63,479 bases of DNA, taken from Chytriomyces cf. hyalinus JEL632. Taxonomy: Eukaryota; Chytridiomycota; Chytridiomycetes; Chytridiales; Chytriomycetaceae. Below the pieces are notes generated by a model that saw nothing but the letters and a program-made list of their open reading frames with translations, ran no database searches and was not told where the DNA came from. The position numbers were made by a program, and so were the translations under genes. Positions 1 through 52,298 of this stretch are shown one piece after another. The stretch covers positions 1-63,479 of the forward strand of contig JAIWWG010000144.1 in NCBI GenBank assembly GCA_025435555.1, in the 5' to 3' direction. Each line of letters starts with the position of its first letter. Positions within the stretch are counted from its first letter, which is position 1.

Positions 1-969
1 AATCCGAATCAGTTCAATCTGTGTCTTTCCGCTTTTGTTTCTGAACAACCCTTGATTCAATTTGAACAGTGCGTCATCTTTGATGGCTCTCTCCAATTTT
101 CTTGCATTGTGAGTTGGAATGACTTTGATGAAAACGAAGTCGCCAAAATCCCGGACGTGCTGTTTGTTACGCTCCATCAAATTGGAAGTCATCCCAAATT
201 TTACCATGTCAAAATTGGGAATGGGGTACGCAACTTTTTGGACGACAGCAGATTCACTTTCAATATCATCAGGTGGTGTAGAATTCGCGCTGGAAATTAA
301 ACCCAGGTAAACGACATCCGTTTCCGACTGGGCATACTTGGCAAGAATCCGTTCGCTTTCCTTTTTATATTCTAGTTCACTATTCCTGTGTTCCACGTCA
401 AGGCGAAAAGCGCGAGCACCGTTATCTGGATTCTCGGTATGCGCAGCATTGATTGCATCGACTTCTGCTTTCAGAGTGGTATCGCCACCAAGGTAACGGG
501 TAAATACGTCCGCATTTGCCAATCTAAAAGCCTTCGCGACTGGACCAGGTAGTCTGTACATGATCTGTACAGCGGTAGCAAGTTTCACCACCGGTGTGGC
601 CTTTTTTCCCGGGAAATTGAACATTTGGTAATCGATTACCGGGATTCGGGGAGAATCGCCCCGAATCCCCGGCATATTTGCCCCTATTCCCGGCACATTC
701 TCTTCATGTTCGTTTTCTGATGGGTTTTGAATCCTATACCATTCTTTGCGCGTACCTTCCCCCATTCCACAGACGTTGTTCAACAAGTCGAAAACGGAAA
801 TAGCAGGCGATGCAGAACCATCGCTTTCGTAATAGATGCCTATACGTACCAAATCCCCGTTCGCATTGAAAATTGTTTTCAAAACTTCACGAGTAATTGG
901 AGGTAACGCAGAGAAATTTGGCGCGGCACCGACAGCAGAAACTCCATCACTTGAAGTTCGAACGCTCAT
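1..969 (-). CDS. MSV199-like + GIY-YIG-like (T5orf172-type) viral protein, 3' end outside window
   Basis: The minus strand is open from an ATG at 969 to the window edge: 323 residues with no stop, so the C-terminus lies to the left. Residues about 130-185 carry FNFPGKK, then KAFRLANADV and RYLGGD, the pattern of the MSV199 DNA-binding domain of large DNA viruses. From about residue 218, VVYLGLISS opens a second domain, followed by VKFGMTSNLMERNKQH, which resembles the GIY-YIG-like T5orf172 fold (K-x-G-x-T/S, R, H). Such MSV199/KilA-N plus T5orf172 fusions are abundant in Nucleocytoviricota and their insertions in eukaryotic genomes; the exact role is unknown, with DNA binding or nuclease activity expected. 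Domain naming is from recalled motifs. It could also be a host gene of viral ancestry. Confidence 0.6.
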   Translation of the reverse strand, partial: MSVRTSSDGVSAVGAAPNFSALPPITREVLKTIFNANGDLVRIGIYYESDGSASPAISVFDLLNNVCGMGEGTRKEWYRIQNPSENEHEENVPGIGANMPGIRGDSPRIPVIDYQMFNFPGKKATPVVKLATAVQIMYRLPGPVAKAFRLANADVFTRYLGGDTTLKAEVDAINAAHTENPDNGARAFRLDVEHRNSELEYKKESERILAKYAQSETDVVYLGLISSANSTPPDDIESESAVVQKVAYPIPNFDMVKFGMTSNLMERNKQHVRDFGDFVFIKVIPTHNARKLERAIKDDALFKLNQGLFRNKSGKTQIELIRI

Positions 970-1040
970 ACTTCTATTGACCTTTTTTTAAGTCCATCTG
1001 TTTAAGCCAACGACGGGGGATCACCGGTGGTTGTGCTTCG

Positions 1041-1354
1041 TGTGCGCCATTTGACCGGGACTTCGACTAGTCTTTTGACCTCCCATAAATTCGAGTGCCT
1101 TGTGGACCGGGGGTTCCATTTTCAGTAAAATCGTTTAGGGTAACTAAAAGGGGAGCTAGAATCAGACCTTGGTTCCTTGAACATATGATCAATTCTGAAA
1201 ATCGGTTTAGGACTTATTGACCAAGGTCACAAAAGTGACCCCCGGTTATGCTTCCCCGAACGATAAATGCAAAAACAGGACCCCCGGTCCGCAAGGCACT
1301 CGAATGTTTGGGAGGTCAAAAGACTAGTCCAACTCCCGGTCAAAAGTACCCACA
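1041..1354. repeat. Imperfect inverted repeat, about 74-nt arms
   Basis: Positions 1041-1114 and 1280-1354 are near reverse complements. Shared blocks include the sequences around GACCTCCCA/GGGAGGTC, GACTAGTC and ACCGGGGGT/ACCCCCGGT. The 165-nt spacer shows no convincing gene. It lies between the MSV199-like gene and a D5 helicase relic. It could be a MITE-like element, a large cruciform or hairpin, or the scar of an inverted duplication. No flanking target duplication was recognised. Confidence 0.75.
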
Positions 1355-1479
1355 CGAATTTACCAAACAACCGGCAAAATCCACGTGACCCGCTCAAAGA
1401 GATCGACAGGGGCATCCTCAGGCTGGGGATATTTCCTCCATCCACATTCGTCCCCGATCTGAAACCATTACCGATCGGA

Positions 1480-1593
1480 ATCCAAACTGAGCCAGAAAAG
1501 GGAAAAACCATCAATTCTGGATTTATGAAGGGTCTTACTGGAAACGATGATATCGTCGCCCGCCATTTGTACGGAGAGATGGTCAAATATTTT
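1480..1593 (+). pseudogene. D5-type SF3 helicase fragment
   Basis: About 38 codons inside a longer accidental reading frame encode TEPEKGKTINSGFMKGLTG followed by NDDIVARHLYGEM. This is the stretch between Walker B and sensor motifs of D5/SF3 primase-helicases (EPEKG-x-x-INSGFMK-x-LTG-x-D-x-x-x-AR-x-LY). It is closer to that family consensus than the intact D5 at 32.7 kb is in the same motif, so it is not a simple copy of it. The flanks show no further helicase sequence, and coding signal ends at about 1593. I call it a relic of a second D5 lineage. Confidence 0.7.
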
Positions 1594-2265: not shown

Positions 2266-5200
2266 ATGGGAACGAATCAATCCAAAGGTCGGTAATGCTG
2301 CCTCCACAAAGTTGTTTTCTAAAAGCCGCTCTCTCCAACCACAACAGCCAACAAACCAGGAAGGGCATTGTCGCCCAAGCGAAAGGGCAACGATCACCCT
2401 ATCAACAGTCCGAATCTCGAGGCGAACAAAGTTGTCACGGTCCCAGTTCCGATCGTGGCAGTCGAGAAGACGGCCAATACTGTGAACGAGGATCCTCCAG
2501 TGAGTGTGACGCAGAATCCCCCTGCGACGAAGGATATCGCAAAGGCGGTTGAGGACACGGCCGATGTGCCTGCGAGGAAGCATTTACCCCCTCACATCGA
2601 CCTCAAGTTTCCGGACGGCACATGTACGTTGTTGTAGCGTGCTTTCCGACATACACTGAATTCAACGCCAGTGGGCACAGAAATCCAATCCCAGCCACTC
2701 GAGGATCTGGGAAAGGCATTTGAGGCCATGATCGCAAAATTGGCCGCAAAAGCGGCCAAGACAAGCGAATCCCGCTTTGAGACTGCCGATTTTATCAAGC
2801 AGTTTGACCACATCGCTGTGGAAGCGAGCGACTTTTCTGCAAATGCCAAAGCATTCCTGGCCGCAGTCCCCAACGTTTCGAGTGAAGTTAAAGAAACCAT
2901 AGATCATGCTATGGACACCATTGACAATATCGCAAGTGCCCACCCCATTTTGAAGATTTCGTGGTTTATAGTATCTGCCGGTTACAAGGTAAATGGCTTG
3001 TGACCTTAATTCTTGACACTCATATAAAGTCCTCAAACCCTTTCCTTTGGTGTGTTGCAGATGGTCAGTGACGCGAGTAAAGTCAACCAGGAATACTTGG
3101 AATTACCGGGACAGTTTCAGGCCATCTTAAAGCACGTCTTACATTTCCTGGAACTTCCCATCGACGGTATCGCGAATGTCAAGGAACGAAGCAACCTTGT
3201 CAGGGCATCTGAGAGCATTATAATTTGCCTGACGGATGCTGCGGTTCTATTCACTGAGTACATGGATATGCCTGGTACCACATTGAGCAACATGAATGGA
3301 TCCAACAAGAACAAACTGGATAAAATGAAGAGGAAACTGACGGACGTTCAAGAAGGGCTCAAGATTGCCAAAGTTGATGGATTATTCGTAGTGGCGGTCA
3401 CTACTGCAAGTAATATGGTGGATATCAAATCTGTTGGACAGGACACCAATGCTGTTGTTCACATGGTTCATAAAGGTCTGGAGGATATGAATGCAAGGTC
3501 GCAAGTCCAATCGGCAAGGGATTCAGAAAAAGAAAAGGAATCTGAACTGGATAAACTGCGAGAACTCTGCAAAGAAAAAGATCCAAATGTAGGAGAAGTC
3601 GCCGCTTTGGTGAACAGATGTGCGAAAGGAACCAGGAAATGGATTGTTGACCAGGTACTGGAATCCATTGAAACAGGGGAAGAGAAAATAACGTGGTTAC
3701 GATGTGAAGCGGGAACTGGAAAATCTGTGATTGCTGGTCTTGTGGCACAGGAGTTGGAGAAGAAAAGTTTGCTGGGTGCCAAATTCTTCTGCAAAGTCAA
3801 CACCAAGAGCGAAAACATAGTTTGCTTGATTCAGACTATCGCACTGGAAGTGAGTGTAGCTTAAGCCGACGATGCCTTACTGTTATATCGTTACTGACTC
3901 CTTTTTCTTATGTCAGTTGGCTGATATCAATGATCAGTTTCGAAAAGCGCTCATCAAAACATTGAAAGCCTGGGGCTTTCAGGATGTAAACGAGAGCAAG
4001 AAAGACATGCCAAACATCGAAAAATTTCTGCAGCTGTTTATTGCGGAGCCAATGAAGGCATGGCCCAAGAACACGTCTGTTGTTGTGGTCATTGACGCGT
4101 TAGATGAAATCAAGAACATTAGTGAAGATATCCGTCGACTGCTGGGTACCTTTCTTCACCTTTCGTCGGTGAAACTGTTCATCACAAGTCGACCTGAGAT
4201 CAAAGACGAATCAATAGAGAACAGCACTGCAACCAAGAAATCCTCAGTAGCACTCATAGCGTTTAAACAAAACGACGAAAGAAATCTTGAAGATATTCGA
4301 ATGTTTGCCACTTCGCAAGTGGATACGCTGTTTGCAAAGTTCCCGGACTTTGGGCTGGACGATAAGAAAGCACTCGAAGATATGCTTGTCAAAAAATCGC
4401 TCGGACTCTTCATATGGATCACCCTGGTCTTGGGGACATCCGATGGCGACGATGAGCAAAGGGGCGAGGTTGCTGATTTTGTGGAAGAGAACGAAACACA
4501 TCTGCTGAAGGCATCAAATCAGCAGAAAATGAAAGAGGAGAAAAAGGAACAGCTGATAAAACGTCTTGAAGAATCTGCATCCTTGGGCCTCCAAGATTTG
4601 TACTGCAGAGCATTCAGTGAAGCGTTTCTCGATGGAGAGAAAACTGGAAAAAAACCGCCATTGAATCTGTTTTCGCCATCTGTTGGAACCCTCATGGTCG
4701 TTAAAGTTCCCATGTCAAAAAAAGGATTGTCTTCCCTTGCGCAACAAGACAAGATAAAGCCACGCCGGATTTCAGAGAGTCTGGACAACATCAGTGCTCT
4801 ACTACGTGTGGACGGCAAGGACAAGCTCTCCTTTGTTCATAAGACTGTCCAAGATTACCTCATAGGTATTGCTTTATCGCAAGACAAAAGCTGCTGCAAC
4901 AATCTCGACAGCATTGGTGCTCTGCTGAGCATGGATGATGAGAATAGGCTCGCATCAATTGACAAGACAGTCTCAGATTATTGTGAAGGTATCAATTCAT
5001 GGAACTTGAACAGCCACGAGTGCGTCAAGGATGTAAACTTCAAGCTTGATTTTGACGAAATATCCTTCAACCTGGCCGCTGCATGTCTTAAAATGCTCAA
5101 CTCAGATGCCCTGTTCACAAATATGGCCGAACTTGATGGTCGTATGAATTATTCAGATGGGAACAGTGACAAGTGGAACATTGATGATGTCCTGTCCGAA

Positions 5201-6399: not shown

Positions 6400-6750
6400 T
6401 TACTTCATATCACTTTTCTTTCCTCGTTTACCTGGCGTTGCGACCTCATTCTTGTAGTTGTGTCGGATTGATCCAATCACTTTCGCGTTCACACTTCTGC
6501 GCTTGGTACTTTCAAAGTTTTGAACTGTGGAATCCCGCTTGATTGTGATTTGCAACACACTCATCCTCTGCGACATACTCATCCTACTGGCGCCACCAAC
6601 GGAGAGCGGGCGGGGGATATATCCTCCACATAAGTTGTTTTCGCGAAGAAGACAATGAAACGGATGAAAACGCGGCAAATTCACAGTTCGCCAGTCAAGG
6701 TTCCCGTCAGGATCATACGCAAGTTTTGACAACACCTTCTGCCGTGACAT
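6400..6750 (-). CDS. Small basic protein, uncertain
   Basis: A 116-codon frame begins with ATG at 6750 (MSRQKVLSKLAYDPDGNLDW). Its C-terminal half is rich in Lys, Arg and Ser. About 100 nt of its 5' end overlaps, on the other strand, the coding region of the repeat-containing protein that follows, so at least one 5' end is misjudged or one frame is spurious. I recognise no family. Its balanced composition and proper ATG argue for a gene; lack of homology signals and the overlap argue against. Confidence 0.3.
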   Translation of the reverse strand: MSRQKVLSKLAYDPDGNLDWRTVNLPRFHPFHCLLRENNLCGGYIPRPLSVGGASRMSMSQRMSVLQITIKRDSTVQNFESTKRRSVNAKVIGSIRHNYKNEVATPGKRGKKSDMK

Positions 6751-8726
6751 CAACTGGAGCGCAATTCAATGGAAGAGGTTCCCGGAGTAGATTGGAAGTT
6801 AAACCCAAAACCCATGGAAAAAAACCGTACAGGATCTCGGATTATTCTGCACCCAAACGCAGAAGTTCGAAACCCGTGAAGACTTCTGTCGAGACGAGCC
6901 CAAATAGTTCAACATTGTCACCCCATGTACCGTCAGCATTGGCAACCCAAGATGTGACAACGGTTAAAAATGATGCCCAAGATGAAGATGGGTCTGAGAT
7001 AACGGAAGATGTGGACATGGTTGATTCACTGCCCGTGTCACCAACACGGGACGTGGTAATGGTTGAAAATAATGCCCTACATGGTCCTGAGAGTACAAAA
7101 GCGGATGCGGTTGCTACGGAGGATGTGGATATGGTTTATGCAGCCTCGCAGCCAGTGTCACCAACACTGTATGTGGGTGTAGGGGAAACTGTTGCACAAG
7201 GTGCGTCTAACATTATGCCGTCACCATCGCACGGATCCGAAACATCACGTACGCAAATCTTGACAACACCCTCTACCGCGACATCAACTGGAGCGCAATT
7301 CAATGGAAGAGGTTCCCGGAGTAGATTGGAAGTTAAACCCAAAACCCATGGAAAAAAACCGTACAGGATCTCGGATTTTTCTGCACCCGTAATGTTGAAA
7401 GTGACAACCGTGAAGACTTCTGTCGACACGAACCCAAGTGTTTCAACAGCGTCACCCCAGGTACCGTCTCGCTCACAATCGCTATCACTCATGCCAGTAC
7501 AATTACCAATCATATCAGCAACCCCCACATCTGCGCAAAAAGACTCACCTACCTCGGTACCCTCATCACCACAAGTACCTGCAACATCAAGACCGGACTT
7601 TGGCCAGGCCTCGTCTTTGAAAAATGAGACCACCGCGAGGGAACAAAGCCCAAGTCCACAGGAAGAAAGCAAAGTTACAAACCATTTTTATGGACCTTAC
7701 CTGGAGACGATGAGATCTGCCGCGTGGCATAAGCGCCGTTACAACAAACCAATAGAATCAAGAAAGCATGAGAATGCGCAGTCATCGATACTACCTCGGC
7801 CAAATAAACTTGATGTGTCAGTTCCAGGCTCACGTAATGCTGATAATGATAATGATAATGACGATGTTGATCCACCGGCCCCAAGTCCATTTACATGGCC
7901 AGCTACAGTAACAGAGTTATGGACTGCTGGACCCAATAACTTCAACGGCAAGTATGAAGGGACACACTCACTGGTAAAGAAACATAAAAGCGCGAAAAAA
8001 GCTCTTGCAGCACCAGCACCGGCACCAACACCAACAAAGGGACCTGCATCAGTAAAAGGACCAGAGCCAGCAAAAGAACCAGCACAAACACAAACACCAG
8101 CACCAGTACCAGTATCGGACTCGGCCTTATGTTTCACCCATTTCTGCTTGACCTTGGAAGATCCGAGCGCATGGGTAGAATTCAATAATAGTCATTATCT
8201 CGAAACGCTGAAAAAGCAAGTGACCATGAATCCTTCAGTGGGACCCAGCTTATTTTGCGAACAAATCATGAATCTGAAATCGTTGGATGGTGATGAATGT
8301 GTCAGAATAGTCTCTTCAGTCGAGCCAATTATTCCTCAGCGAGTGCGATCGACTCTATCGCAAGTTTCGAAATTCGAACTGTGCCTGGAAGCATACATGC
8401 GAATTATGAATCTGAAATATATCCAGCTGACTAAAGGATTCGCATTGCGATGTGGTAAATTTAATGGTGACTGGACCGTGGACTTGTATGTGGACTCCCT
8501 GGAAAAGGAAGCAGTCCTCCAGTTCAAGTATTTGCTGGGGGCGCGCAATCTGATCCCAACGGCGTCGGTCTTTAAACGAGACGATGAACACAGTGCGATG
8601 CTGGCCTACGTTAATGAACGTCTCGATGAAATGGAGTCACAGCTGGCGACTCGAACACATCCGATTTCGCCCATAACGAGTGTCGTGGATGCACTAAGAG
8701 CGCTGATGTGGAATTCAATTTCATGA
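6651..8726 (+). CDS. Low-complexity protein with two internal repeats and a shared unknown C-terminal domain
   Basis: The frame is open from at least 6651 with no ATG near its 5' end, so an upstream exon or a lost start is likely. A 43-residue block (TTPS...TSTGAQFNGRGSRSR...GKKPYRISD) occurs twice, at 6726-6854 and 7260-7388, almost identical in DNA. A disordered Pro/Ala/Thr-rich middle follows. The last 200 residues (from about 8128) form a compact domain: LCFTHFCLTLEDPSAW, GPSLFCEQIMN, KFELCLEAYMRI, LQFKYLLGAR and EMESQLA. The same motif order is in the protein at 50501-51292 within the viral block, so the two are paralogous by C-terminus. I know no name for this domain. Viral origin is inferred from the paralogue's context. 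It could instead be a host family that the virus acquired. Confidence 0.6.
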   Translation, partial: DNETDENAANSQFASQGSRQDHTQVLTTPSAVTSTGAQFNGRGSRSRLEVKPKTHGKKPYRISDYSAPKRRSSKPVKTSVETSPNSSTLSPHVPSALATQDVTTVKNDAQDEDGSEITEDVDMVDSLPVSPTRDVVMVENNALHGPESTKADAVATEDVDMVYAASQPVSPTLYVGVGETVAQGASNIMPSPSHGSETSRTQILTTPSTATSTGAQFNGRGSRSRLEVKPKTHGKKPYRISDFSAPVMLKVTTVKTSVDTNPSVSTASPQVPSRSQSLSLMPVQLPIISATPTSAQKDSPTSVPSSPQVPATSRPDFGQASSLKNETTAREQSPSPQEESKVTNHFYGPYLETMRSAAWHKRRYNKPIESRKHENAQSSILPRPNKLDVSVPGSRNADNDNDNDDVDPPAPSPFTWPATVTELWTAGPNNFNGKYEGTHSLVKKHKSAKKALAAPAPAPTPTKGPASVKGPEPAKEPAQTQTPAPVPVSDSALCFTHFCLTLEDPSAWVEFNNSHYLETLKKQVTMNPSVGPSLFCEQIMNLKSLDGDECVRIVSSVEPIIPQRVRSTLSQVSKFELCLEAYMRIMNLKYIQLTKGFALRCGKFNGDWTVDLYVDSLEKEAVLQFKYLLGARNLIPTASVFKRDDEHSAMLAYVNERLDEMESQLATRTHPISPITSVVDALRALMWNSIS
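6726..7389 (+). repeat. Pair of 129-bp direct repeats inside the coding region
   Basis: Positions 6726-6854 and 7260-7388 (offset 534) differ at only about five bases and keep the reading frame. Near-identity in DNA, not only protein, points to recent duplication or gene conversion. Confidence 0.85.
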
Positions 8727-8896
8727 ACCACTTTCGATGCAAAAAAGAGAAACAATCAGTTTTCGCAACCTGGCTCACACTTGCACGTTGCAACAACGCC
8801 ACAGCAACTGGCGATACCAAAAGCTGTTCGAATGAATAGAGCTTCTGTCTGAGAGCTTCGACAGTTTGAGCGAGATGTTGAGTTCATTTTGTCCGA

Positions 8897-9616: not shown

Positions 9617-9732
9617 ATCTATGAAGTCCTTTGTTTTCATTCGAGTGTGATCCTGGTTTATTTATTTGAGAATATATAGTATCAGCCATACAATAAGGCC
9701 AAAGCGATTGGTTTTATATTGTCCTATGTGAA

Positions 9733-35898: not shown

Positions 35899-35901
35899 AT
35901 T

Positions 35902-40137: not shown

Positions 40138-40236
40138 AATTTCGGGTGGCTTTTTCATGATAAAATCAACACATACCACTCTTCGCGGACGAAGGTATCA
40201 AACATACAACAACAACCAGGAAAAACAGCTAGCTGC

Positions 40237-42256: not shown

Positions 42257-42417
42257 GAATGTTGATTTAGGTTGTTTTATCAAGATACTTTGCAGAGAGA
42301 GACTAGAAAAAAGTCGGTGGAGTTCATTGAAAGCAAAGCTGCAATGAACACGGCATTGAGTCCTGTTCAAATTTATCAAATTTTCCTTTTTATTTCTTTC
42401 CTCAAATAGAACAGCGA

Positions 42418-43760
42418 ATGTCGACGGTGTCATCAGACTGTGCCGTCCTCAGGGCATGGCAGCCCACCATATACGCCAATGGCTGCTGCACTCCGAGCGG
42501 CTTATGCAACAGTGCTGGCAACGTTGTGAGAGTGTACACATCTCCTTCCACTGACCCCATCACACATGGTCAAGTATTTAACAAATCATACAGGCGGCTC
42601 TATTCCAACCAGTTGACAGGATCCATTCCAACTGAACTCGGCCAACTGACCAGTCTGCAATATCTGTTGGTGTCTTGCATCTGATCAATGCATCAAGTAT
42701 TGACCTTATCATACAGGTGGCTGTATGGCAACCAGTTGACAGGATCCATTCCAACTGAACTCGGCCAACTGACCAGTCTGACTTCTCTGTTGGTGTCTTC
42801 CATCTGATCAATGCATCAAGTATTGACCAATTCATACAGGTCTCTCTATTCCAACCAGTTGACAGGATCCATTCCAACTGAACTTGGCCGGCTGACCAGT
42901 CTGACTGAACTGTTGGTGTCTTGCATTTGATCAATGCATCAAGTATTGAACAAATCATGCAGGTCTCTCAGAAACAACCAGTTGACAGGATCCATTCCGA
43001 CTGAACTCGGCCAGCTGACCAGTCTGCAATATCTGTTGGTGTCTTGCATTTGTGATTGCTGTTGCAATGTGCCTGACCTTCAATCAAATGACTATAAAAG
43101 TCGCTTGGACTCAAACAGACTAAGCGGGAGCATACCTTGCGAGTTCAGCAACTTGAAAGCACTATCGACCAAGTGAGTATTGTTCCGTTTACAACATGAA
43201 ACCGTTGTGTTCACACAACGTCAAGCAACTTTACAGGAAATGCCCTTGAGTCCACTTCCATAAATGCTGCAGTGAGTTGACTGCATCTTTTTTCAAATTG
43301 AATCCACGATATCCAGTTAAAATGAGCCCCAGTCCTGCAAAAGTAACTCTGCAGCCTCCCTGCAATCTGCGTCATCGCCAACAACTTCCGAACCTGCCAC
43401 CATCCCATCCAACTCTAATCCAAGCATCACAAACAATGATCTACCAAGTCAGCAGAACTCCAGTGCTTCCATTATTGGTGGAGCTGTTGGTGCAGCAGTC
43501 CTTTTAGTGCTCACCATTGCTGTTGGTTTCTGGTGTCGCCAAAAACGTGCCAAAAGTAAAAGTCAATCTGATACCTCCTTGACCTGGACGTGGATCCAGT
43601 CAATCCCTCTGAAAAAGCACCCGGTGTCCCTGAGATTCCAACCTTTACGGAAGCTGCTCCCAAGGACTTCGTGAGCGAACCCAAACTGGAAGTTGGAGAA
43701 CGTGTATCTGAGTCTGATTCGGACAGCGATTCGGATTCCACAGTGACGCTCGACTTTTAA
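42418..43760 (+). CDS. LRR receptor-like single-pass membrane protein, nine exons
   Basis: Splicing at GT-AG sites gives exons 42418-42533, 42594-42665, 42717-42788, 42840-42911, 42963-43034, 43101-43172, 43226-43271, 43333-43555 and 43600-43760: 301 codons, with introns of 44-66 nt. The N-terminus (DCAVLRAWQPTIYANGCC) is the Cys-pair cap of plant-type LRR proteins. Exons 2-6 each code one 24-residue LRR (NQLTGSIPTELGQLTSL). A Ser-rich stalk leads to a TM segment (SIIGGAVGAAVLLVLTIAVG) and an acidic tail (ESDSDSDSDSTVTLDF). No signal peptide is visible at this start, so a further 5' exon may exist; a pyrimidine-rich acceptor-like site ends at 42409. It is a cell-surface recognition-type protein. 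It lies one base from the convergent viral gene that follows. Confidence 0.75.
42594..43034 (+). repeat. Four tandem 123-bp exon + intron units
   Basis: Units begin at 42594, 42717, 42840 and 42963, exactly 123 nt apart. Each contains a 72-nt LRR exon and, for the first three, a nearly identical 51-nt intron (GTTGGTGTCTTGCAT...ATACAG). High identity across the introns shows recent amplification of the whole unit. Confidence 0.9.
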
Positions 43761-43761
43761 A

Positions 43762-44382
43762 TTATTTTCGAAGTGGGATTCTTGTTCTGATTTCAAATAT
43801 GTACGTGACTTGCTGGAGTGGGTTGGCCGGTCCAGTTGGGGGTTCGGACCCAAAATAAACCTGTGATCCGTCTGGATGTTTCAACGAAATGGACACTTTA
43901 TCCAATTTATCGCGTGGTGGTCGGAACTGAATAGGCAAATCGTCAATATTGGACTTGTCCAGGTTCAGGTAACTGGCATTTGGGTGTCGCATGATTCCAA
44001 GAATGGCGAACCAATCGTGCCCTGATGAGCTTCGCAGATGACTTAAATCGCTTCCCATGTCCAACAGTAAATACGCGTCACTTCCAATGTGATTTAAATT
44101 CGGAATTGTCCCACCATACAAAGCCATGCTGACCACGTCGCGGTACATGTCGGGCAACTTGATATCAAATGAAGCAGAGTCGGGGAATCGAGTTCTATCA
44201 CGGTCTGCAGAGGAAATAATGACAAAATTGCGTTTTATTTCGAAGGGTTTTGCAGGTGTCGGGTTGCTTGGGCTGGGGTCCGAAATGCTATTTCTAACGC
44301 CGTGAAATTGAAGTGTTGGGAATTCCCGATCTTCTTCTTCAGCAATGCTGGTGTAATGCTGCTTGTAAATTTTGGTGTTCAT
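43762..44382 (-). CDS. DUF5901-like NCLDV structural protein
   Basis: The ATG at 44382 opens 206 codons. The domain begins FVIISSADRDRTRFPDSASF and continues DIKLPDMYRDVVSMALYGGT, IPNLNHIG and AYLLLDMG. A 'V-I-x-S-x-D-R-D...F-P-x-x-x-x-F-x-I-x-L-P...V-x-S-(M/I)-x-L-x-x-x-x-I-P-N' start is characteristic of a beta-rich protein family repeated across giant viruses (DUF5901 type), probably a virion component. The C-terminus (TYIFEIRTRIPLRK) fits the family's closing strand. Its stop codon faces the LRR gene stop with one base between. Confidence 0.65.
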   Translation of the reverse strand: MNTKIYKQHYTSIAEEEDREFPTLQFHGVRNSISDPSPSNPTPAKPFEIKRNFVIISSADRDRTRFPDSASFDIKLPDMYRDVVSMALYGGTIPNLNHIGSDAYLLLDMGSDLSHLRSSSGHDWFAILGIMRHPNASYLNLDKSNIDDLPIQFRPPRDKLDKVSISLKHPDGSQVYFGSEPPTGPANPLQQVTYIFEIRTRIPLRK

Positions 44383-44506
44383 TGTGCAGAGAGGCGCAGG
44401 AAAAAAACGTTGAGTGTCAAACGCGCGTGTTGTTTTTGTTTTTTCACGATAGAATGCACCTCATCCACATTTGTTGTCCTCAATCGAATCGACTTCACTC
44501 GCTTGC

Positions 44507-45376
44507 ATGGATTCCTGTTGCGACTCAGCCGACCTGGCAGTTCAATCAGGTCACTGGGTATGTTTGATGTGTGGCTGCGTCGATTCGCCGTGCCTTGACA
44601 CTACTGGGACGTCTCTCCCGTCTCAACCACATTCTATCGAGCTTGGTGGCGGTTCAAAATACAGTCGCCAAAAGAGGATACATCAGTGGACAAGTGGACT
44701 TGTCATGCGCTCTGAAGGCGACGGCACTATCGTACAAAGCGTTGCACGTAAGGTGTTCATCGCTGAATTTGAACAAATTCGGGAGAGATACAATCTTCCT
44801 GCGAGTATCCCTCAAGTCACTTGGAATCAGTGGAGTCATTTGGCTTTGGAGATGAAGGCTCAACACTGCTATTTGAAGCGAAACACGACAAGATCGCATT
44901 TAAAGACCGCCTGCTTTTACTTTGCTATGTTGCAAGAACGCGTTGCGGTCCAGAAGAAATTGGTCGTTCAAATGATGGCATCCATTGGCATGCGTATACC
45001 GCTACCCTCACTCTTAAAAGCCATCTTGCTCGTGACAAAAGTCACAGGATGGCGTGACAATGCGCCAATGTATACAGCGGAAGAATGGGTCCATCGGCTA
45101 TGCAGCAGATTCGAGATGGGATTCCAAATAGAGAGTCAAGTGCAGAAAATAGCTGACTTTGCCACGCGTCACATTTTTCCATCATCAGAAGGACCCGGAA
45201 ATCCAGTGTATGTGGCCTGCGCGAGTCTGACGTTCTTCAGCCATCATGTACCCAACAATGTCATTGTGAACAAGCGGAGTGTGGTGCGAGCGACTGGATA
45301 CAGTGACCCGAAAACTGTTCGAAAGACGCTGGATAGAATGGTCAAGCACAAGCGCGAGATTTTGTCGCTGTTGTGA
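44507..45376 (+). CDS. Viral TFIIB-like transcription initiation factor
   Basis: The ATG at 44507 opens 289 codons. The N-terminal zinc ribbon is visible: DSCCDSADLAVQSGHWVCLM followed by CGCVDSPC. Then SKYSRQKRIHQW marks the B-reader region, and two cyclin-like folds follow, the second ending VYVACASLTFFSH, then NKRSVVRATGYSDPKTVRKT. TFIIB recruits the polymerase to promoters, here presumably the viral RPB1-containing enzyme. A frame extends 36 nt further 5' without an ATG. The stop is 25 nt before the fibre gene ATG in the same orientation. Confidence 0.8.
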   Translation: MDSCCDSADLAVQSGHWVCLMCGCVDSPCLDTTGTSLPSQPHSIELGGGSKYSRQKRIHQWTSGLVMRSEGDGTIVQSVARKVFIAEFEQIRERYNLPASIPQVTWNQWSHLALEMKAQHCYLKRNTTRSHLKTACFYFAMLQERVAVQKKLVVQMMASIGMRIPLPSLLKAILLVTKVTGWRDNAPMYTAEEWVHRLCSRFEMGFQIESQVQKIADFATRHIFPSSEGPGNPVYVACASLTFFSHHVPNNVIVNKRSVVRATGYSDPKTVRKTLDRMVKHKREILSLL

Positions 45377-45401
45377 TTTTTTTACGACCCTTGTCAACAA
45401 C

Positions 45402-48400
45402 ATGACACAGTCTCGAAACGTTGTGAAGGAATTTGGAAATGTGTTTATTGATAATGAACCTGTATTGACTGCTGCCAACGGGCTTCCCGTCCATTTAACC
45501 AATAAGACACCGGCAGTGAGTGGTAGTACGGGTGCACTGATGGTCGATGGTGGTATTGGTGTGATTGGTGGTGTCTGGTCTGAGGGTGTCATATCGGCCG
45601 AGGGAGGTATTGATATGAAGAATTCTCGACTCTCGAATGTTGGGGCGCCAATAAATCCACAGGATGCAGTCAACCTGTCATTCTTTTCAGCCAATAATGG
45701 TGGTGTGGTTGCAGGAACTGGACTGACTCGTGACTTTGCAGCAAACATCATCAGTGTTAGCCCGTCACAGCCTCAAGTGACGGTGCTGGGTTGTATCACC
45801 ACCGGGATTTGGAACGCCACACCAATAACAAGTGCATACGGTGGTACTGGAGTAACTACCTTTGAGGCCGAACAAGTCCTGTTTGGAGGCACAGATCCAC
45901 GTACGGGACAATCCAAGTTGACATCGAGTCGAACATTTACATATAGTACGAGCACACAGTCATTGACCCTCAACGGCCTCAACGACACCTCAGGCGGAGT
46001 TGGCACAGGTACCCTAATTGTTGCTGGAGGAGGTTCTTTTGGCAAGTCCTTGTACGTACACGATGTCCTCAAGGTTGACGGAGCGGGTGTATGTTCTAGC
46101 CTCACAATATCCAGCTCTGATTCGAATGCGTTGACCGTGACCGGTGGAGCATGGTTTCAGTCCGATACTCGTTTTTCGGGAAATTTATCTTGCATGGGAA
46201 CAACAACGTTGTCCACTACGGTTATTCAGAGTACGTCCGACTCGTTGAGTCCATTCACTGGAAGCTGGGTTACTGCGGGCGGTGCGGGGATTGCAAAGTC
46301 ACTTTACGTTGGGGAAACAATTCATGTACTTGATCAGGCGTCTTTTTCTGCACAGATTGATTCCGTCAGCCCAGACACGGGTGCGGTTGTAATCACCGGA
46401 GGTCTTGGAGTTGGTCTCAATGCATCGTTTGGCGCGGGGCTCACTGTCACAGGTACTGCAACGTACATGGGGCCAGTGAGTTTTCGACAAACTGTTTCAA
46501 CTACCGCGCTCTTCAGCAGTTCCAATACCACTGACACATCCATTAGCACGGCAGGAGGAATGGTCGTCACGAAGCGCCTCAACGTTGGGGGGTTGTTATC
46601 CGTAACAGGTACCACGCGGTTAACAGGGATTGTTTCATTCGATTCTGCGGCCAACGTGGCTGGCAATCTTGTTGTCGCGGGATCACCCACGCTCCAAACA
46701 TCCGTCGCTATTGCGGGACCTTTGTCGTCCACCTCTTCGCTTTCAATTGCGGGCTTAGTGCAATTCTCAAATACACTGGACTCCAGTTCCGTTTCTTCAG
46801 GGAGTTGTGTTGTGTCGGGCGGAATCGGGGTCCAAAAATCCATCTTTTGTGGCGGACCCGTTACAGTTGACAGCGCCTTGGATGCCGTGTCTACTTCGAC
46901 GCCAGCAGCTTTGGTCGTAACAGGGGGTGCAGTGATTCAAAAAACAGTAATTCTCGGAGGAAACGCATCAGTGAATGGAACTTTGGTTGTTCAAAATACA
47001 CAAGATGCAGTCTCATCATCCACGGGGTGTGCAGTGTTTGCGGGAGGCATTGGCATAGGAAAGAGCCTGGTTCTCGCAGGATCCGCAACTGTGACGGGCT
47101 CGGTCACGGCCTCGAACCAGGTGCTTGCTCAAAGTCTGATCGCAAATTCCCAATGTCGAGTTTTGGGTACTCAGGACTCTGTGTCGCCCAGTTCGGGTGC
47201 TCTGGTTGTAAGTGGAGGCCTTGGCGTTGGTTCAAGTCTGGTTGTAGCTGGTGGTTCCACCCTTGGTGGTACTCTTTTGGTGAGCGGCACGTGTACCCTA
47301 GCGTCCGGAATGACGGTTTCGGGGTCCACGTCAATCACAAGCACTTCTGATTCTTGCCTTGTTCTTGCTGGTGGGTGCTCCGTGGCGAAAAATTTGACTG
47401 TTTCTGGAGCAAGCATATCAGCCCCAAACGCGAACGCCATCTTTGGGACAAGTCAGGTATCTGGAGCCGCCACTTTCCAGAGCACTGTTTTTGTGACCAG
47501 TACAACAGATGCATTCAACGCCAATTCAGGAAGCATTGTTGTGTCGGGCGGTGTCAGCATTGCCAAAACCTTGTATGCGAGCGGGAATAGTGTTTTTTCA
47601 GGCACGCTGACAGCAACATCCCCTGCACTCTTTCTCAACACAACTGACTCAACGACTGTCAATACGGGGGCAGTGCAGATCGCTGGTGGTCTTAGTGTCC
47701 AGAAATCATTGTACATTGGAAACACATTGACCGTTGCAGCAGCAACGGTTCTTGCAAGTAGTTTGGATTCAAATTCTGTCCTGTCAGGTGGCGTGGTTGT
47801 CGCCGGTGGCATTGGGATCGGTAAAAATGCAAATGTCGGTGGTGGATTGACCGTGCAAGGCGCAACATCGGCTCAGGGATCTCTGACAGTGTCGGGGCCA
47901 TTCACAGTCGTTTCTAATGCGCAATTCGCGTCCACCGTGGACACGGTATCTGTCGGCACTGGGAGTGTGATTGTGTCCGGTGGAGTTGGAATTGCAAAAT
48001 CCGTCACTGTTGGAGGATCCGTGAGTGTAGTGGGGTTGATAAACGTCTCAGGTTCATTAAACGTGGGTAGCAGCGTCAGCGTGTCCGTTTCGGGGGGACT
48101 TGTAATCCAGTCAAGTTTAGATGCGACAAGTCCAAATTCCGCTGCAGTAACCATTGCCGGAGGTCTAGGTGTAATGAAGAGCCTGAATGTATCTGGCTCA
48201 GCCACGTTTTCCGGTTCCAACGTGAGTGTCACGAGTCTGACTGTCACTAACACGTCGGATTCGTCGGGAGTCGGTACAGGAGCAGTCGTTGTAGCCGGTG
48301 GAGTGAGTGTCTCCAAATCCATATTGATTGGAGGTTCCGTCGCCGTTTCAGGCACGTTTGTCGCAAGTGGATCGGTTGTCTATCAGGGGAGTGCCTCTTT

Positions 48401-49126
48401 TAGTCAAGCAGTCACCATCACATCGACCATAGACTCGGCAAATACAAGTTCTGGAAGTCTTGTCATGGCGGGTGGACTAGGAGTGGCCAAAAATGCAACA
48501 GTGGGTGGATCCTGTGCAATTCAGGGATCCGCCAACATTTCTGGAAACACAGTTTTTGGAGGACTGGTGTCATTCACCAATACCTCAGACACAAGCGTAA
48601 CTCTGACAGGTGGGATGAGTGTGGCGAAGGCCGTGACAATCGCCAGTGACCTGACTGTTGGGGGGACAACCAATTTGTCAGGGTCGCTGTCAATTGCATC
48701 CCTCGCATCAACAACACTCACAGTGACAGGAAATCAGGACGCCACCATTTCAACGGCCAGTGGAAGTTTCGCAGTCGTGGGTGGTGCCACAGTGGGCAAG
48801 TCGCTTGTCTTGGGTGGCACCCTATATGCAGGAGCGGTATTGTGCACGGCGCAGTCGCATATGTCACACCTTCGTCCAATTCAACGGTGACAGTGAATGC
48901 ACCAGGAGTCGTCGTCGGAGCGAGCGGAACTCTGGCGGCTCTCTCGTTTCAGTTCCCCAGTACGCCTGCGAACGGAACATGCGTATTCATCACCACCGTG
49001 TACGCCATCTCGACCGTATCCATCCTGGCCAACTGCGGACCCAATATGACGGACGCGGGCTTCTCGGCTGGTCAGACGGTCAGGTATATATATGTTTCAG
49101 CAGCGGGTCTCTGGTTCAAGTGCTGA
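45402..49126 (+). CDS. Fibre-like repeat protein, one late frameshift
   Basis: The ATG at 45402 (MTQSRNVVKEFGN) opens 1,163 codons ending at 48890. About 25 repeats of roughly 40 residues follow a 'S-x-S-x-x-T-G-x-x-V-V-x-G-G-x-G-x-x-K-S-x-x-V-G-G' pattern, as in surface or tail-fibre-like proteins of large DNA viruses. The expected C-terminal domain (VHGAVAYVTPSSNSTVTVN to YIYVSAAGLWFKC) is present at 48842-49126 but in another frame, so a one-base shift lies near 48830-48842. Thus the gene is nearly intact; the shift may be mutation, assembly error or a recoding site. It starts 25 nt after TFIIB. Paralogous to the degenerate minus-strand gene at 17.5-26.4 kb. Confidence 0.8.
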
Positions 49127-49346
49127 TGACTTTTTTTTTTAGCCAGATGGGATTGTTGCAGTCGGACAAACTTGTGACAGACACTGCGCGGGTTGGCTGT
49201 ATTGTGGACGGTACCCTGACAGCAAACGTGACTGGGAAATCTCAACCGAAAACAGTCACAGCGCGCCATTGCGAGGTTCTGCTGCACAAGATGTTTTTTT
49301 AACAATTTTCAAACAATAACATTTTATTTCAAAGATGAGACATGAC
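49032..49346 (+). repeat. 315-bp exact direct repeat, copy 2 (native context)
   Basis: Matches 26411-26725 without a visible difference. Here it is in natural context, running from the fibre gene C-terminal domain across a small ORF into the first codons of the next gene, so this is the probable donor locus. Confidence 0.95.
49147..49302 (+). CDS. 51-residue ORF between fibre gene and next gene
   Basis: ATG to TAA (MGLLQSDKLVTDTARVGCIV...LHKMFF), starting 20 nt after the fibre stop and following a T10 run. It fills the gap between two viral genes, as small genes do in compact virus genomes. No motif recognised; it may equally be untranslated. Confidence 0.35.
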   Translation: MGLLQSDKLVTDTARVGCIVDGTLTANVTGKSQPKTVTARHCEVLLHKMFF

Positions 49347-49847
49347 GTCCCAACCCTCATCATTGCGGGCGAGACGTTTGTCGGGGAAGATGCCTTTGCA
49401 TGGGTCAACCAGCAACTAGGTGTGAGCAGACCGCCGCCCGCTGCAAACTCATACATCCAGAACCAGGTATTACAACAGCAGCGATTACAGCAACTGAGGG
49501 GCCACCCACATCAACTAGCCGCATTAGCCGCGCCTAAAGTTGTTGCGGATTCGGAAGGCACCAATCCATTGCCAGAACTGAATCTAATGGGTTTGGGGGA
49601 TGATGGTGGCGGTGGCGGTGGCCTGAGCGCGAGTAACAGTGTCGGTGATTTCATGTACGCAAATCCAAATGTAATGACGGACGTCACTGGAATCAACGGA
49701 AGTGGGGCGGATACTGCGGATGGGCTGCTGAAGCCGATTCAGACCAAAGACACGAAAGGAATGGATCGTATGAACGAGACCTTACAAAAATACGAAAAAG
49801 AGCGCAATCAACTGGGTGACATCATGGTTGGAGCAAGGAGGATCTAG
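49335..49847 (+). CDS. Viral protein with thioredoxin-like N-terminal snippet, unknown function
   Basis: The ATG at 49335, preceded by TTTCAAAG, opens 170 codons. The N-terminus VPTLIIAGETFVGEDAFAWV looks like the cis-Pro strand and last helix of a thioredoxin or glutaredoxin fold, a motif I also associate with several giant-virus proteins; the CxxC half is absent. A Gln-rich segment, a Gly run (GDDGGGGGGLS) and a charged C-terminal coil follow. Function unknown. The first 12 bases are in the 315-bp repeat. Confidence 0.55.
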   Translation: MRHDVPTLIIAGETFVGEDAFAWVNQQLGVSRPPPAANSYIQNQVLQQQRLQQLRGHPHQLAALAAPKVVADSEGTNPLPELNLMGLGDDGGGGGGLSASNSVGDFMYANPNVMTDVTGINGSGADTADGLLKPIQTKDTKGMDRMNETLQKYEKERNQLGDIMVGARRI

Positions 49848-49886
49848 TGAGTCTTTTTCTTCGCTCAAGGGGAAAGAACTTGACAT

Positions 49887-50474
49887 ATGCTGGATTTGTT
49901 TGCTTTGGTACTCACGTCGTGCTTGATTATCTACTTCATTTTTCGATATCATTTATCGGATGCAAGAATCCGCGTGCGAGCTTTACTGGACGGGCGATCG
50001 TATCTGGTTCGTAACTCACCGCAGTCGCAGGAAACAGCAGAAACACTTGCACGCATCAATATGAAACTTGAGCCATTTCTAAAGAGTCTGAATGTCAGCC
50101 CTGATCCCAAATACCGCGGCTTTTGTGCGCGACTCCTTGAAAGATACAACCCAGAGGCTCTTTCGGAAGGTCGCATTGAAAAAGGACTTACCTCATATAC
50201 AATCAACAAGGGCGATGCGATCGTTCTGTGCTTGAGGTCGAGAGATGATCGCGAAACGTTGTTTGACGAAAATCTGCTGATGTATGTCGTCCTTCATGAG
50301 TTGAGTCACGTCGGATGCGTTACTATGGATCATAGCGCTGAATTTTACATGAATTTTAGGTACCTGCTTCAAAAGGCTGAGGCAGCAGCTCTATTCCAAC
50401 CGGTGCAAGGCGATATAAACTACTGTGGCCTGAATTTACGTGGTGGGTTGGTTGCACCTTCCACATTTTTTTAA
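49887..50474 (+). CDS. WLM-type putative zinc metallopeptidase with N-terminal membrane anchor
   Basis: The ATG at 49887 opens 195 codons. Residues 2-22 are hydrophobic (LDLFALVLTSCLIIYFIF), a signal anchor. The catalytic motif is MYVVLHELSHVGC, a HE-x-x-H zinc site. YTINKGDAIVLCLRSR and LLQKAEAAALFQPV lie before and after it, as in the WLM/SprT-like peptidases found in many giant viruses, with Y-C-G-L near the end (INYCGLNL). Cellular WLM peptidases act on SUMO-conjugated or DNA-crosslinked proteins; the viral substrate is unknown. It is co-oriented with its neighbours, with a 26-nt gap to the next gene. Confidence 0.75.
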   Translation: MLDLFALVLTSCLIIYFIFRYHLSDARIRVRALLDGRSYLVRNSPQSQETAETLARINMKLEPFLKSLNVSPDPKYRGFCARLLERYNPEALSEGRIEKGLTSYTINKGDAIVLCLRSRDDRETLFDENLLMYVVLHELSHVGCVTMDHSAEFYMNFRYLLQKAEAAALFQPVQGDINYCGLNLRGGLVAPSTFF

Positions 50475-50500
50475 CTTGTCAAGAAGCAACAACAAAACTA

Positions 50501-51292
50501 ATGCTCTTTCAGAACCTGGCCGGAGATGTGTTTAAAAATATCGGCAAAAAATGGACGACTGCAAGTGTGCAGCAAGGTGGGGCTAGTTTGTTGGCTTCGG
50601 AAGAGAAACTTTGCCTCGCCTATTTTCAGCTCAAACTGCAGGATCCAAGCTCTTGGGTAGCGTTCGATCATTCAACAGAACTTAAGGGCTATAGGGCTTC
50701 GGTTTTGGTCGATCCATCTTCTGGTCCGCCAATCTTCTGTGAGAAATTCCTAAATTGTGATTACAAAAATAAACCTGCACTGCTTGCGGCAATTTTCGCA
50801 TATGGCAATCTTGTACCTGCGGGTAATGGATTGACTCAAGTCGGGAAGTTCAAGATTTGCCTTGAAATCGCCATCAGGTTTGCGTTCCTTTCTCGAATGT
50901 CTCTCGGCTCATTTCACATCACCCTTAACCCCATGATTTCGGACCCATGGACGTCGCTATGGAGTGTTGTGGATTCAAGTACAAAAAACATCGTGTATCG
51001 CTTTAAATATATCGTCGGGTCTCAAAGTGTGATTTGGGTCCGAGAAGATAGTGATGATGGACAAGACGGCGAACAAACCGCAATGTTACATCATCAGCTA
51101 CAACTCTTGCTCTCCGAAATGGAATCGCAACTTGCGGTAGACAGTAGTCGTCCAGCAGTCGATGAGACACTGGCGCTGCGGGATATTATTCGAATGTCTT
51201 CTGAACCCGGTTTTGGACAAATGGGGGGTGGGGCGCGAAGACGTGTCGTCCAAACTTGCCTCCCACCTCGTGTACTTGCGCGTGGACGTTAA
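50501..51292 (+). CDS. Protein of a new paralogous family (shared domain with 6.7-8.7 kb gene)
   Basis: The ATG at 50501 opens 263 codons. From residue 35 it follows the same motif order as the C-terminus of the protein at 6651-8726: LCLAYFQLKLQDPSSWVAF, GPPIFCEKFLN, KFKICLEIAIRFAF, YRFKYIVGS and EMESQLA. It lacks the repeated Pro-rich N-terminal region of that paralogue. No known domain name; alternating strands and helices suggest a compact fold of about 200 residues. It sits between a peptidase and an ankyrin gene, all co-oriented, so a viral gene is likely. Confidence 0.65.
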   Translation: MLFQNLAGDVFKNIGKKWTTASVQQGGASLLASEEKLCLAYFQLKLQDPSSWVAFDHSTELKGYRASVLVDPSSGPPIFCEKFLNCDYKNKPALLAAIFAYGNLVPAGNGLTQVGKFKICLEIAIRFAFLSRMSLGSFHITLNPMISDPWTSLWSVVDSSTKNIVYRFKYIVGSQSVIWVREDSDDGQDGEQTAMLHHQLQLLLSEMESQLAVDSSRPAVDETLALRDIIRMSSEPGFGQMGGGARRRVVQTCLPPRVLARGR

Positions 51293-51332
51293 AATGTTCT
51301 GTTTTTTTTTCTTTCAGTTTCAAAGATTGAAA

Positions 51333-52298
51333 ATGGAAACAACATCACTGTACCAAGCTGTAAAACGCGGTAATAGGAGAGTCGTTATCGATTTACTTCA
51401 TCATGGTATGACTGAAGCCATGCCAGACGCCATGTTTCTTGCATGTCGAAGAGGATACACACTCATTGTCAAAGTTTTGCTGCAACATGGAGCTCGCGCA
51501 ACATTGGGCTGCTTATTGAATGCGGTGGATAAGATCCATTATTCTGTCGTGCAGTTGTTACTTGACAATGGCTTGCAGCCTGAGAGTCAAGCGCTTTGGT
51601 GTGCATGTCAAAAGTCAAACAGTTTGCAAATCGGCGGTAACAACGCCACAGCAACTCGGATGGTGAACTTGCTTCTAATGCATGGTGCGAATCAACACGT
51701 CTATCAAGGTGAACTGTTGGAACAGGCATGTGCAGTTGGTAATATGCCACTTGTGGAACAACTGCTTGCGTTTGGTGCTCATTTGTCTTCGAACGCGTTG
51801 AGAGTTGCTTGTGACAATGACCGTCGCGTCATTGCCATCCTCCTCTTGCAGCATGGTTTTCAACCCTTGTTGTCTCAGATGGATGGATGGAGCCCTGATA
51901 TGAAGTATGTCATGGCCACACACACAAAACACACGCGCTGGACAAGGGTCAGACATGCTGTTCGCAAGTCCTGGACGTTACGAACTGGAATTTTGTTCAA
52001 GTGGCAGGTGTATGCGCAGGCACAGGGGGAACATCAACACATTGCCACGTTGCAGGCGCAGGCTCAATTTTTTGACATAGCTCATGATGAGCGTGCAACA
52101 TTTCGCGAGTTATGCGTGGCGCTTGAAGCAGCAACCAGCCTCATGTCGCGTACTGGGGATTGGCATCCTGAATTTTTTGACTTCACTGGTCAACCCATCC
52201 GCGAACTTCCCAAATGGCAGGTTCTGGTGACAGACGGACACCCATTCAACGTCTTTGATCTCCTAAAACTGGTTGAGATGAATCCTGTTTGGTTTTGA
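51333..52298 (+). CDS. Ankyrin-repeat protein
   Basis: The ATG at 51333 opens 321 codons. Five to six ankyrin-like repeats occupy residues 1-200: LYQAVKRGNRRVVIDLLHHG, ACRRGYTLIVKVLLQHGA, ACAVGNMPLVEQLLAFGAH and others, somewhat degenerate. The C-terminal third (RHAVRKSWTLRTGILFKW onwards) is unrelated and unrecognised. Ankyrin proteins are a typical expanded class in giant viruses, used in host interaction. A TTTCAAAG string lies 8-15 nt upstream, as in two other viral genes. It is the last viral-looking gene on the right. Confidence 0.75.
   Translation: METTSLYQAVKRGNRRVVIDLLHHGMTEAMPDAMFLACRRGYTLIVKVLLQHGARATLGCLLNAVDKIHYSVVQLLLDNGLQPESQALWCACQKSNSLQIGGNNATATRMVNLLLMHGANQHVYQGELLEQACAVGNMPLVEQLLAFGAHLSSNALRVACDNDRRVIAILLLQHGFQPLLSQMDGWSPDMKYVMATHTKHTRWTRVRHAVRKSWTLRTGILFKWQVYAQAQGEHQHIATLQAQAQFFDIAHDERATFRELCVALEAATSLMSRTGDWHPEFFDFTGQPIRELPKWQVLVTDGHPFNVFDLLKLVEMNPVWF

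Follow-up and report, generated by a model that had tools for sequence, protein, structure and literature searches.

Giant-virus genes in a chytrid have already been reported (PMC5294986). In that survey, which names three fungi and in which viruses of algal prey are not excluded, NCLDV genes were described in Gonapodya prolifera, there listed as Chytridiomycota, and in Allomyces macrogynus (see also PMC9894930). As in the locus analyzed here, these are giant-virus core genes that form small islands amid the genes of early-diverging fungi, and the survey reads them as larger-fragment insertions. Chytriomyces cf. hyalinus JEL632 is not in that survey's set of named fungi, and its single genome holds many diverged pieces, with capsid, DNA polymerase B (PolB), D5 and RPB1 genes and signs that the viruses entered separately. 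In Rhizophagus irregularis strain 4401, a 1.5-Mb endogenous region is described as one continuous Asfarviridae-related insertion, for which the report found no capsid gene (PMC10640383). There too Nucleocytoviricota DNA lies in a fungal chromosome with decaying genes, and extra virus-derived polymerase genes are reported on several chromosomes; in our case the host is a chytrid, the pieces are many and shuffled, a capsid gene is present and no family is assigned. The animal relative Amoebidium appalachense shows recurrent giant-virus endogenisation, with intron-bearing KDM4-like JmjC genes in 39% of insertions (PMC11244446). Both cases share many insertions, mostly intronless viral genes and one recurring type of intron-bearing eukaryotic gene, JmjC there and NACHT-WD40 here; silencing by CG methylation is shown in that report, whereas the viral genes here are without CpG depletion.

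In this paper we looked at a window of 63,479 nucleotides, which is one whole contig (C51) of JEL632. With a probability of roughly 0.86, we read it as chytrid chromosomal DNA with the remains of a Nucleocytoviricota-type virus, a product of repeated integrations, decay and shuffling in NACHT-WD40 surroundings. The window seems to be just one decaying fragment among dozens, left on several occasions by related giant viruses, and such fragments often have fungal-type immune-receptor-like genes next to them. Such diverged insertions with capsid and polymerase genes tie a chytrid host to a virus group that, in the searches run, otherwise turned up almost solely as proteins lacking an organism name.

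Layout and genes of the window

The window holds two dense viral blocks (9.7-26.1 kb and 32.7-52.3 kb), which give way to transposable elements and single-copy fungal DNA. The viral frames are intronless, with a density of 84-86% over the ORFs chosen, and about 9 kb of the span is taken by NACHT-WD40 genes. The features are as follows.

1-969 (-), ORF with a weak MUG113/T5orf172-type C-terminus, running off the contig end
2400-6202 (+), NLR-A, NACHT (NPHP3_N) and WD40; start not fixed
6726-8726 (+), virus-linked ORF, no function assigned; colinear with C199 at 94% DNA identity
8909-9651 (no strand), dispersed repeat; boundary 8909 common to C199, C102, C53, C122 and C50, with partial copies on other contigs
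9733-14082 (-), RPB1 (largest RNA polymerase subunit), domains 1-7 by profile; no introns seen
17463-20796 (-), fibre-like repeat gene, frameshifted into two overlapping frames; similar repeats in C42
21072-23672 (-), gene judged fibre-like by eye; Pfam gave nothing at E 0.001
23688-26069 (-), gene judged fibre-like by eye; a 94% copy lies at C189:146651-149297
26411-26725 (+), 315-bp repeat, copy 1, abutting NLR-B; 100% identical to copy 2
26743-32200 (-), NLR-B, NACHT-WD40; segment 28115-29650 inverted inside; 5' end not fixed
32746-35898 (+), D5-type primase-helicase, AEP_C962R primase domain and D5_N
38471-39934 (+), GlcNAc glycosyltransferase (PF11397)
40237-41085 (+), VLTF2-like ORF, zinc-finger motif by eye
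42570-43052 (no strand), minisatellite with a unit of ~123 bp, present on C238, C156, C169, C117, C50 and C201 too
43762-44382 (-), DUF5901-like ORF, weak (E 0.058)
44507-45376 (+), TFIIB-like ORF (frame 44471-45376), zinc-ribbon pattern by eye
45279-48890 (+), fibre-like repeat gene (GGhG repeats)
49032-49346 (+), 315-bp repeat, copy 2, at the fibre-gene end
49887-50474 (+), WLM metallopeptidase-like gene, by profile
51162-52298 (+), ankyrin-repeat protein, by profile; homology to C60 extends to 52285
52300-53164 (no strand), transposable element of about 865 bp; 30 other places at 90-98% among the matches listed
53165-55909 (no strand), PIF/Harbinger-type element with DDE_Tnp_4 and Myb/SANT; copies, whole or partial, on C24, C64, C111, C202 and C4
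55910-63479 (no strand), fungal flank, matched nowhere else in the genome
57032-57931 (-), 7tm_1, in the fungal flank
57903-58607 (+), N-acetyltransferase, in the fungal flank
61449-62735 (+), fasciclin, in the fungal flank

The sequence-only reading of this DNA had named RPB1, D5 and WLM genes next to fungal ones, and profile searches confirmed each of the three names (for RPB1 on two pieces of the gene), while the 7tm_1, N-acetyltransferase and fasciclin genes of the right flank bear out the fungal neighbours. The D5 gene, described as intact, is indeed one open frame of 1050 codons. The lesions claimed for RPB1 and a fibre gene are also present: RPB1 is a single 1449-codon frame with one in-frame stop, at codon 1027, and 17463-20796 is split between its two frames. 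The glycosyltransferase, also claimed to be damaged, is not counted as broken since its PF11397 match sits in one open frame. Several other names were not confirmed by profile. The supposed MSV199 protein at the left end has no MSV199 match, and matches MUG113 and T5orf172 instead at E 0.0006 and 0.0096, both under the curated cut-offs. Pfam gave no match up to E 10 for the VLTF2-like and TFIIB-like ORFs, PDB gave no relative of the latter up to E 1 and its single-sequence fold was unusable (mean pLDDT 36.8), and the DUF5760-like frame (16093-16560) matches only another family, Ufd2P_core, weakly (E 0.027); these three names rest on motifs read by eye. The DUF5901 label keeps a match, but a weak one.

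A true split of RPB1 at the stop, as in archaea, was considered and dropped because the second part, inspected by eye, has no ATG ahead of the conserved motif. A paralogue of the virus-linked ORF at 6726-8726 was noticed by eye at 50501-51292. Searches of the window for tRNAs and Rfam families found none.

The virus-host junction in the window is overlain by transposons. A second copy of the right flank (from 55.9 kb) is missing from the genome, and thus no uninterrupted allele was found. C238 was considered as an allelic contig; it matches just ~4 kb around D5 plus the minisatellite and its flanks differ, so it is not the other haplotype. The two NACHT-WD40 genes within the span and the transposable elements at the right junction were absent from the earlier reading.

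Dispersed copies, relatives and history

Pieces of the window recur elsewhere in the genome in shuffled order. D5 has 40 other matches over 16 other contigs at 30-98% identity (41 matches with the window's own), and the WLM piece 50014-50577 is found again six times on C37, on C48, C127, C150 and C106, and inside longer matches on C60 and C122. Contig C199, of 808,703 bp, carries a copy colinear with window positions 6655-15199, including the RPB1 block, and a gene that by eye looks like a class-I myosin lies ~3.5 kb from it. Together with the window's right flank, this copy gives continuity with the host chromosome by assembly, and it speaks against a contig wrongly joined from two organisms, one of the cases that the sequence-only reading had named as its own refutation. 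The search for capsid and PolB genes that it had proposed was also rewarded: both are on another contig, C42 (capsid by PF16903 and PF04451), so that the hallmark genes of a giant endogenous viral element are RPB1 and D5 in the window and capsid and PolB on C42. Profile searches for capsid and PolB on the window contig gave no match, and neither did a genome-wide search for the packaging ATPase (PF04665); the genome search for VLTF3 (PF04947) matched nothing, and no control either. An RPB2 search found four loci, with host and virus not told apart, and the RPB1 loci on C112, C225 and C100 were assigned to the host by number only.

In the RPB1 tree, the window RPB1 and its C199 copy fall within a set of 21 of the 60 rows with an SH-aLRT of 100, and all 23 fungal Pol II rows used form one clade (100) separate from that set. 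The proposed RPB1 phylogeny, which the sequence-only reading had also set as a possible refutation, thus places the gene outside fungal Pol II, among rows that include 45 of 120 listed proteins and 14 of 80 IMG/VR loci and no named giant-virus isolate. The IMG/VR rows have long branches. All 76 relatives of the capsid bear capsid domains. Other chytrids also have relatives: C. hyalinus has a D5 relative and a 94% capsid, Blyttiomyces helicus an RPB1 relative and Rhizophlyctis rosea a capsid relative. The IMG/VR scan with RPB1 reached a top identity of 44% (best 80 of 423 relatives), the IMG/VR scans with D5 and capsid gave no relative, and when 14 of the 80 IMG/VR RPB1 loci were compared with 29 other window ORFs, nothing matched at E 0.001. 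Judged by sequence, the virus lineage would be of Nucleocytoviricota type, with no named close relative in the searches run and no family assignment; its sole tie to Asfarviridae is C962R in the name of the D5 N-terminal domain profile, and a name is no placement.

The D5 copies have a dN/dS of 0.137 (dS 0.053) and the two parts of the RPB1 copies 0.21 and 0.11 (dS 0.046 and 0.059); under an assumed site ratio, neutral evolution is rejected at about 1e-9 and 2e-12. Short or odd genes are less low, at 0.41-0.56. Because the D5 and RPB1 copies differ mostly at silent sites, their divergence probably took place in working viruses that entered on separate occasions. Gene conversion could blur the silent divergence. 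One ancient integration, from which all dispersed copies would descend by segmental duplication and transposons within the host, would fit the module boundaries held in common at 8909, 43573/43577 and 50014/50577 in reshuffled order, as well as the 4-kb D5 segment that stands alone between minisatellite and host DNA on C238. Yet dN/dS between the D5 and RPB1 copies is far from 1, the two RPB1 copies carry different lesions and the D5 identities span a wide range, and we regard a single integration as improbable. Much less credit still goes to contamination of the assembly, or to a DNA virus sequenced along with the culture, with no integration at all. The window is a short and mostly viral contig, and C42 is alike, but the C199 copy lies inside a large contig by a fungal-looking gene, viral pieces are spread over 37 other contigs (anchor list), frames are broken and genome-wide transposons sit in the region.

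Under repeated integration, related giant viruses would have entered several times, as the silent-site divergence under purifying selection suggests. The pieces would then have gained the stops and frameshifts seen in them, been cut up and shuffled, probably via recombination at repeats, and been invaded by transposons; lesions, shuffling and transposons are visible in the sequence, and their order is what we propose. The viral pieces now lie among a recombining family of intron-bearing fungal-type NACHT-WD40 genes, where the association is observed and its cause is not. The profiles, the RPB1 tree, the C199 copy and the lesions in RPB1 and the fibre gene thus agree with the claim that a fungal chromosome carries giant-virus genes in decay. 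To speak of a single region in early decay does not describe it well, as the genome holds numerous scattered, diverged pieces from related lineages and part of the span is NACHT-WD40 genes with introns of fungal type. The suggestion of a still partly functional virus copy is unsupported, since neither capsid nor PolB was matched on the contig and the frames of RPB1 and a fibre gene are broken.

NACHT-WD40 genes beside the viral pieces

NLR-A and NLR-B resemble the fungal NLRs of published surveys in having a NACHT domain followed by WD40 repeats (NPHP3_N and WD40 matches) and in occurring in several copies (PMC4986451, PMC12258605). Chytrids had no hits in the 2014 survey (PMC4986451), and counts go down to one in Chytridiomycota species in that of 2025 (PMC12258605); here a chytrid has many NLRs, with one subfamily near viral pieces, so the link falls in a group where these surveys saw few or none.

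NLR-B-like loci lie within 15 kb of viral pieces in 9 of 11 cases, against 1 of 14 other NACHT loci, and within 5 kb in 5 of 11 against 1 of 14. The 56 anchors on 38 contigs include the likely host RPB1 loci on C112 and C225; without those there are 54 on 37, and 9/11 is unchanged. Removed ahead of counting were window hits, three repeats (8909-9651, the 315-bp repeat and the minisatellite), the WLM piece and transposons, PolB hits (C134, C184, C221) together with RPB1 on C100, taken as host, and six minor pieces (C217, C60, C200, C111, C114 and C238), whose restoration alters no count. Among the 11 loci, C216, C134 and C199:24 kb are the 5' part only and C114 is WD40 only; those with longer matches lie within 15 kb in 5 of 7 cases. 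Anchors and NLR loci were in part found with sequence from this one window. When the anchors are restricted to D5 protein, capsid and PolB (23, on 18 contigs), the counts are 5/11 and 0/14, with a chance of 3.7e-7 for a zone of 1.5% of the genome. The counts show that NLR-B-like genes and viral pieces lie together, and are silent on the cause.

One explanation, which we slightly favor, is that the NACHT-WD40 genes are unrelated to the virus and that both build up in the same repeat-rich, recombining chromosome parts. This fits the fungal-type intron found at one place in three NLR copies (spliceosomal type at 3850-3916 in NLR-A, GTGAGT...CAG as read from the sequence, and at the same place in NLR-B), the mosaic nature of the copies and the CpG observed/expected ratio of the WD40 parts (0.1-0.45), which is like that of transposons (0.28-0.48) and not like that of viral genes (near 0.95). 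It also fits the silent divergence of NLR-A (0.18-0.21), above that of nearby RPB1 (~0.05), and the lack of an NLR relative among free viral genomes in two IMG/VR scans of low sensitivity. Shared neighbourhood alone explains less well why NLR-A has matching positions on C51 and C199, next to the same viral genes, why the fibre-end piece adjoins an NLR on both C51 (NLR-B) and C84, and why the 9/11 and 1/14 counts differ so much. Another, more tentative hypothesis is that chytrid giant viruses bore NACHT-WD40 genes of fungal origin as cargo, introns intact, at two or more genome positions, where they might have served to weaken the host's cell-death defence or turn it elsewhere; if so, the chytrid's NLR subfamily would have come, or spread, via its viruses. 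The recurrent link makes a testable case for encounters, or gene exchange, between immune receptors and giant viruses in fungi. In the NACHT alignment, Walker B-like and sensor-like motifs can be seen by eye.

Contig layout and gene content

The 37.8-Mb assembly of Chytriomyces cf. hyalinus JEL632, a chytrid of the order Chytridiales, is composed of 242 contigs, and the window covers one of them (C51, 63,479 bp) entirely. It contains two blocks of long frames without introns (9733–26069 and 32746–52298), with coverages of 0.86 and 0.84, respectively, counted only over the ORFs that we picked. Profile searches matched RPB1, a D5 primase-helicase, a GlcNAc transferase, a WLM protein and an ankyrin protein. 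The gene list of the sequence-only reading was retained for RPB1, D5 and WLM. The labels of the TFIIB-, VLTF2- and DUF5760-like frames found no support in the profile search and the DUF5901-like frame gave a weak match (E 0.058). That reading had also described lesions; those seen here are a single internal stop in RPB1, which is one frame of 1449 codons, and a frameshift in one fibre-like gene. Beside the blocks are found:

2.4–6.2 kb: NLR-A, a NACHT-WD40 gene
26.7–32.2 kb: NLR-B, a NACHT-WD40 gene with an inner inversion
Directly after the viral homology: an 865-bp element, with 30 other places listed
Between the 865-bp element and 55.9 kb: a PIF/Harbinger-type element

On the right side the viral homology stops at about 52285, and from 55.9 kb on the DNA is single-copy with 7tm_1, N-acetyltransferase and fasciclin genes. 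A perfect 315-bp repeat (26411–26725 and 49032–49346) lies within otherwise diverged DNA, and its perfection there points to very recent duplication or gene conversion.

Origin and dispersal of the viral DNA

In a quick RPB1 tree, built without bootstrap from 45 of 120 listed proteins and free of named giant-virus isolates, the window RPB1 and its copy on contig C199 fall within a set of 21 of the 60 rows (SH-aLRT 100), together with 17 proteins without organism name and two of Blyttiomyces helicus. The 23 fungal Pol II rows form one separate clade (SH-aLRT 100), and 14 IMG/VR loci, with long branches, are likewise separate from the set. Judged by this placement outside the fungal clade, which agrees with the earlier assignment, the window RPB1 is probably viral rather than fungal. 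D5 has five relatives at E 0.001 or better, four of them from Chytriomyces. In another C. hyalinus genome, a 68,870-bp contig carries two D5 genes (P0002, P0003) whose locus numbers directly follow each other; one of these genes is 75% identical to the window D5 over 75% of the latter's length.

The sequence-only reading proposed one endogenised region, 1–52298. In that form it is not supported: D5 gives 40 further matches on 16 other contigs (identity 30–98%), and stretches of the two blocks are found again on many contigs, with identities of mostly 70–97%, in rearranged order and with boundaries common to the copies. The viral DNA in this genome is probably more than one insertion. On C199 (808 kb) window 6655–15199 has a colinear copy with an inserted minisatellite piece, about 3.5 kb from a class-I-myosin-like gene (read by eye). 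Capsid and DNA polymerase B genes, whose search elsewhere had been proposed, are both present on contig C42 (capsid PF16903 and PF04451; polymerase in two frames), where a fibre-type gene, retrotransposons and host-type genes were seen by eye. Among the 76 relatives of this capsid, two come from named organisms, one from C. hyalinus (94% identity) and one from Rhizophlyctis rosea (36%). Near these viral genes lies a Fic-domain gene (C42:10982–11818, E 2.7e-13), and by eye a similar frame is found on C199 (about 720.4–721.4 kb) between viral DNA and an NLR. A 560-bp piece with the WLM gene end (window 50014–50577), present at six places on contig C37 (96–97%) and on several other contigs, resembles a small mobile unit. 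On contig C238 (184–36547) a LINE-like element with two ORFs (1273 and 627 aa) occurs five times with identical first residues, as a run of three and then one of two, with a different element in between.

How did these copies arise? When the window is compared with other copies, D5 shows dS 0.053 and dN/dS 0.137, and RPB1 dS 0.046–0.059 and dN/dS 0.21 and 0.11, where neutrally evolving copies would be expected at about 1; the approximate binomial chances under neutrality are 1e-9 and 2e-12, with the site ratio taken as 0.757. The ratios of further pieces are less clear (WLM against contig C106, 0.41; ORF 14168, 0.47; ORF 36314, 0.41; ORF 6726, 0.56). The RPB1 copies of the window and C199 carry different lesions. 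The simplest reading is that related giant-virus lineages diverged while functional, would have entered the chytrid genome separately, and may have decayed afterwards. The window stop (11002–11004) lies about 13 codons from the first one that the C199 copy has in its later part, in a region close to the split site of archaeal RPB1.

Giant-virus DNA in fungi as such is already known, as in reports on Rhizophagus (PMC10640383) and on Allomyces and Gonapodya prolifera, the latter listed there as Chytridiomycota (PMC5294986). Among the papers listed by our literature searches, which took in no preprints and few subscription journals, none describes the present Chytriomyces case or an NLR link.

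NACHT-WD40 genes and viral DNA

The NLR-B stretch has 11 similar loci outside the window at the DNA level (our grouping of 52 matches); several of these loci match only in part. A viral anchor, that is, a giant-virus piece placed on the genome, lies within 15 kb of 9 of these 11, compared with 1 of the 14 remaining NACHT loci (our grouping of 25 matches), in a zone that makes up 3.2–3.3% of the genome; within 5 kb the count is 5 of 11. With anchors limited to D5 protein, capsid and DNA polymerase B, 15 kb gives 5 of 11 against 0 of 14. The position of NLR-A is shared between C51 and C199. A fibre-end piece adjoins the NLR both on C51 (NLR-B) and on contig C84. In NLR-A, NLR-B and the C84 copy, a GTGAGT...CAG intron sits at one common position, and NLR pairs show moderate selection (dN/dS 0.35–0.63).

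One possible explanation is that these NLR-like genes are virus cargo. In the Amoebidium report, host-type genes with introns recur in giant-virus insertions, a precedent for such genes amid giant-virus DNA (PMC11244446). Yet the silent divergence of NLR-A between C51 and C199 (0.18–0.21) is about four times that of RPB1, which could be because the NLR copies are mosaics. The WD40 parts are also CpG-poor (0.1–0.45), as transposons are, whereas viral genes are near 0.95; the other NACHT genes lie far from known viral pieces, and two scans of IMG/VR, of low sensitivity, found no NLR relatives. On contig C187, which has no viral anchor, three successive NACHT matches with open frames are seen at 82579–93667.
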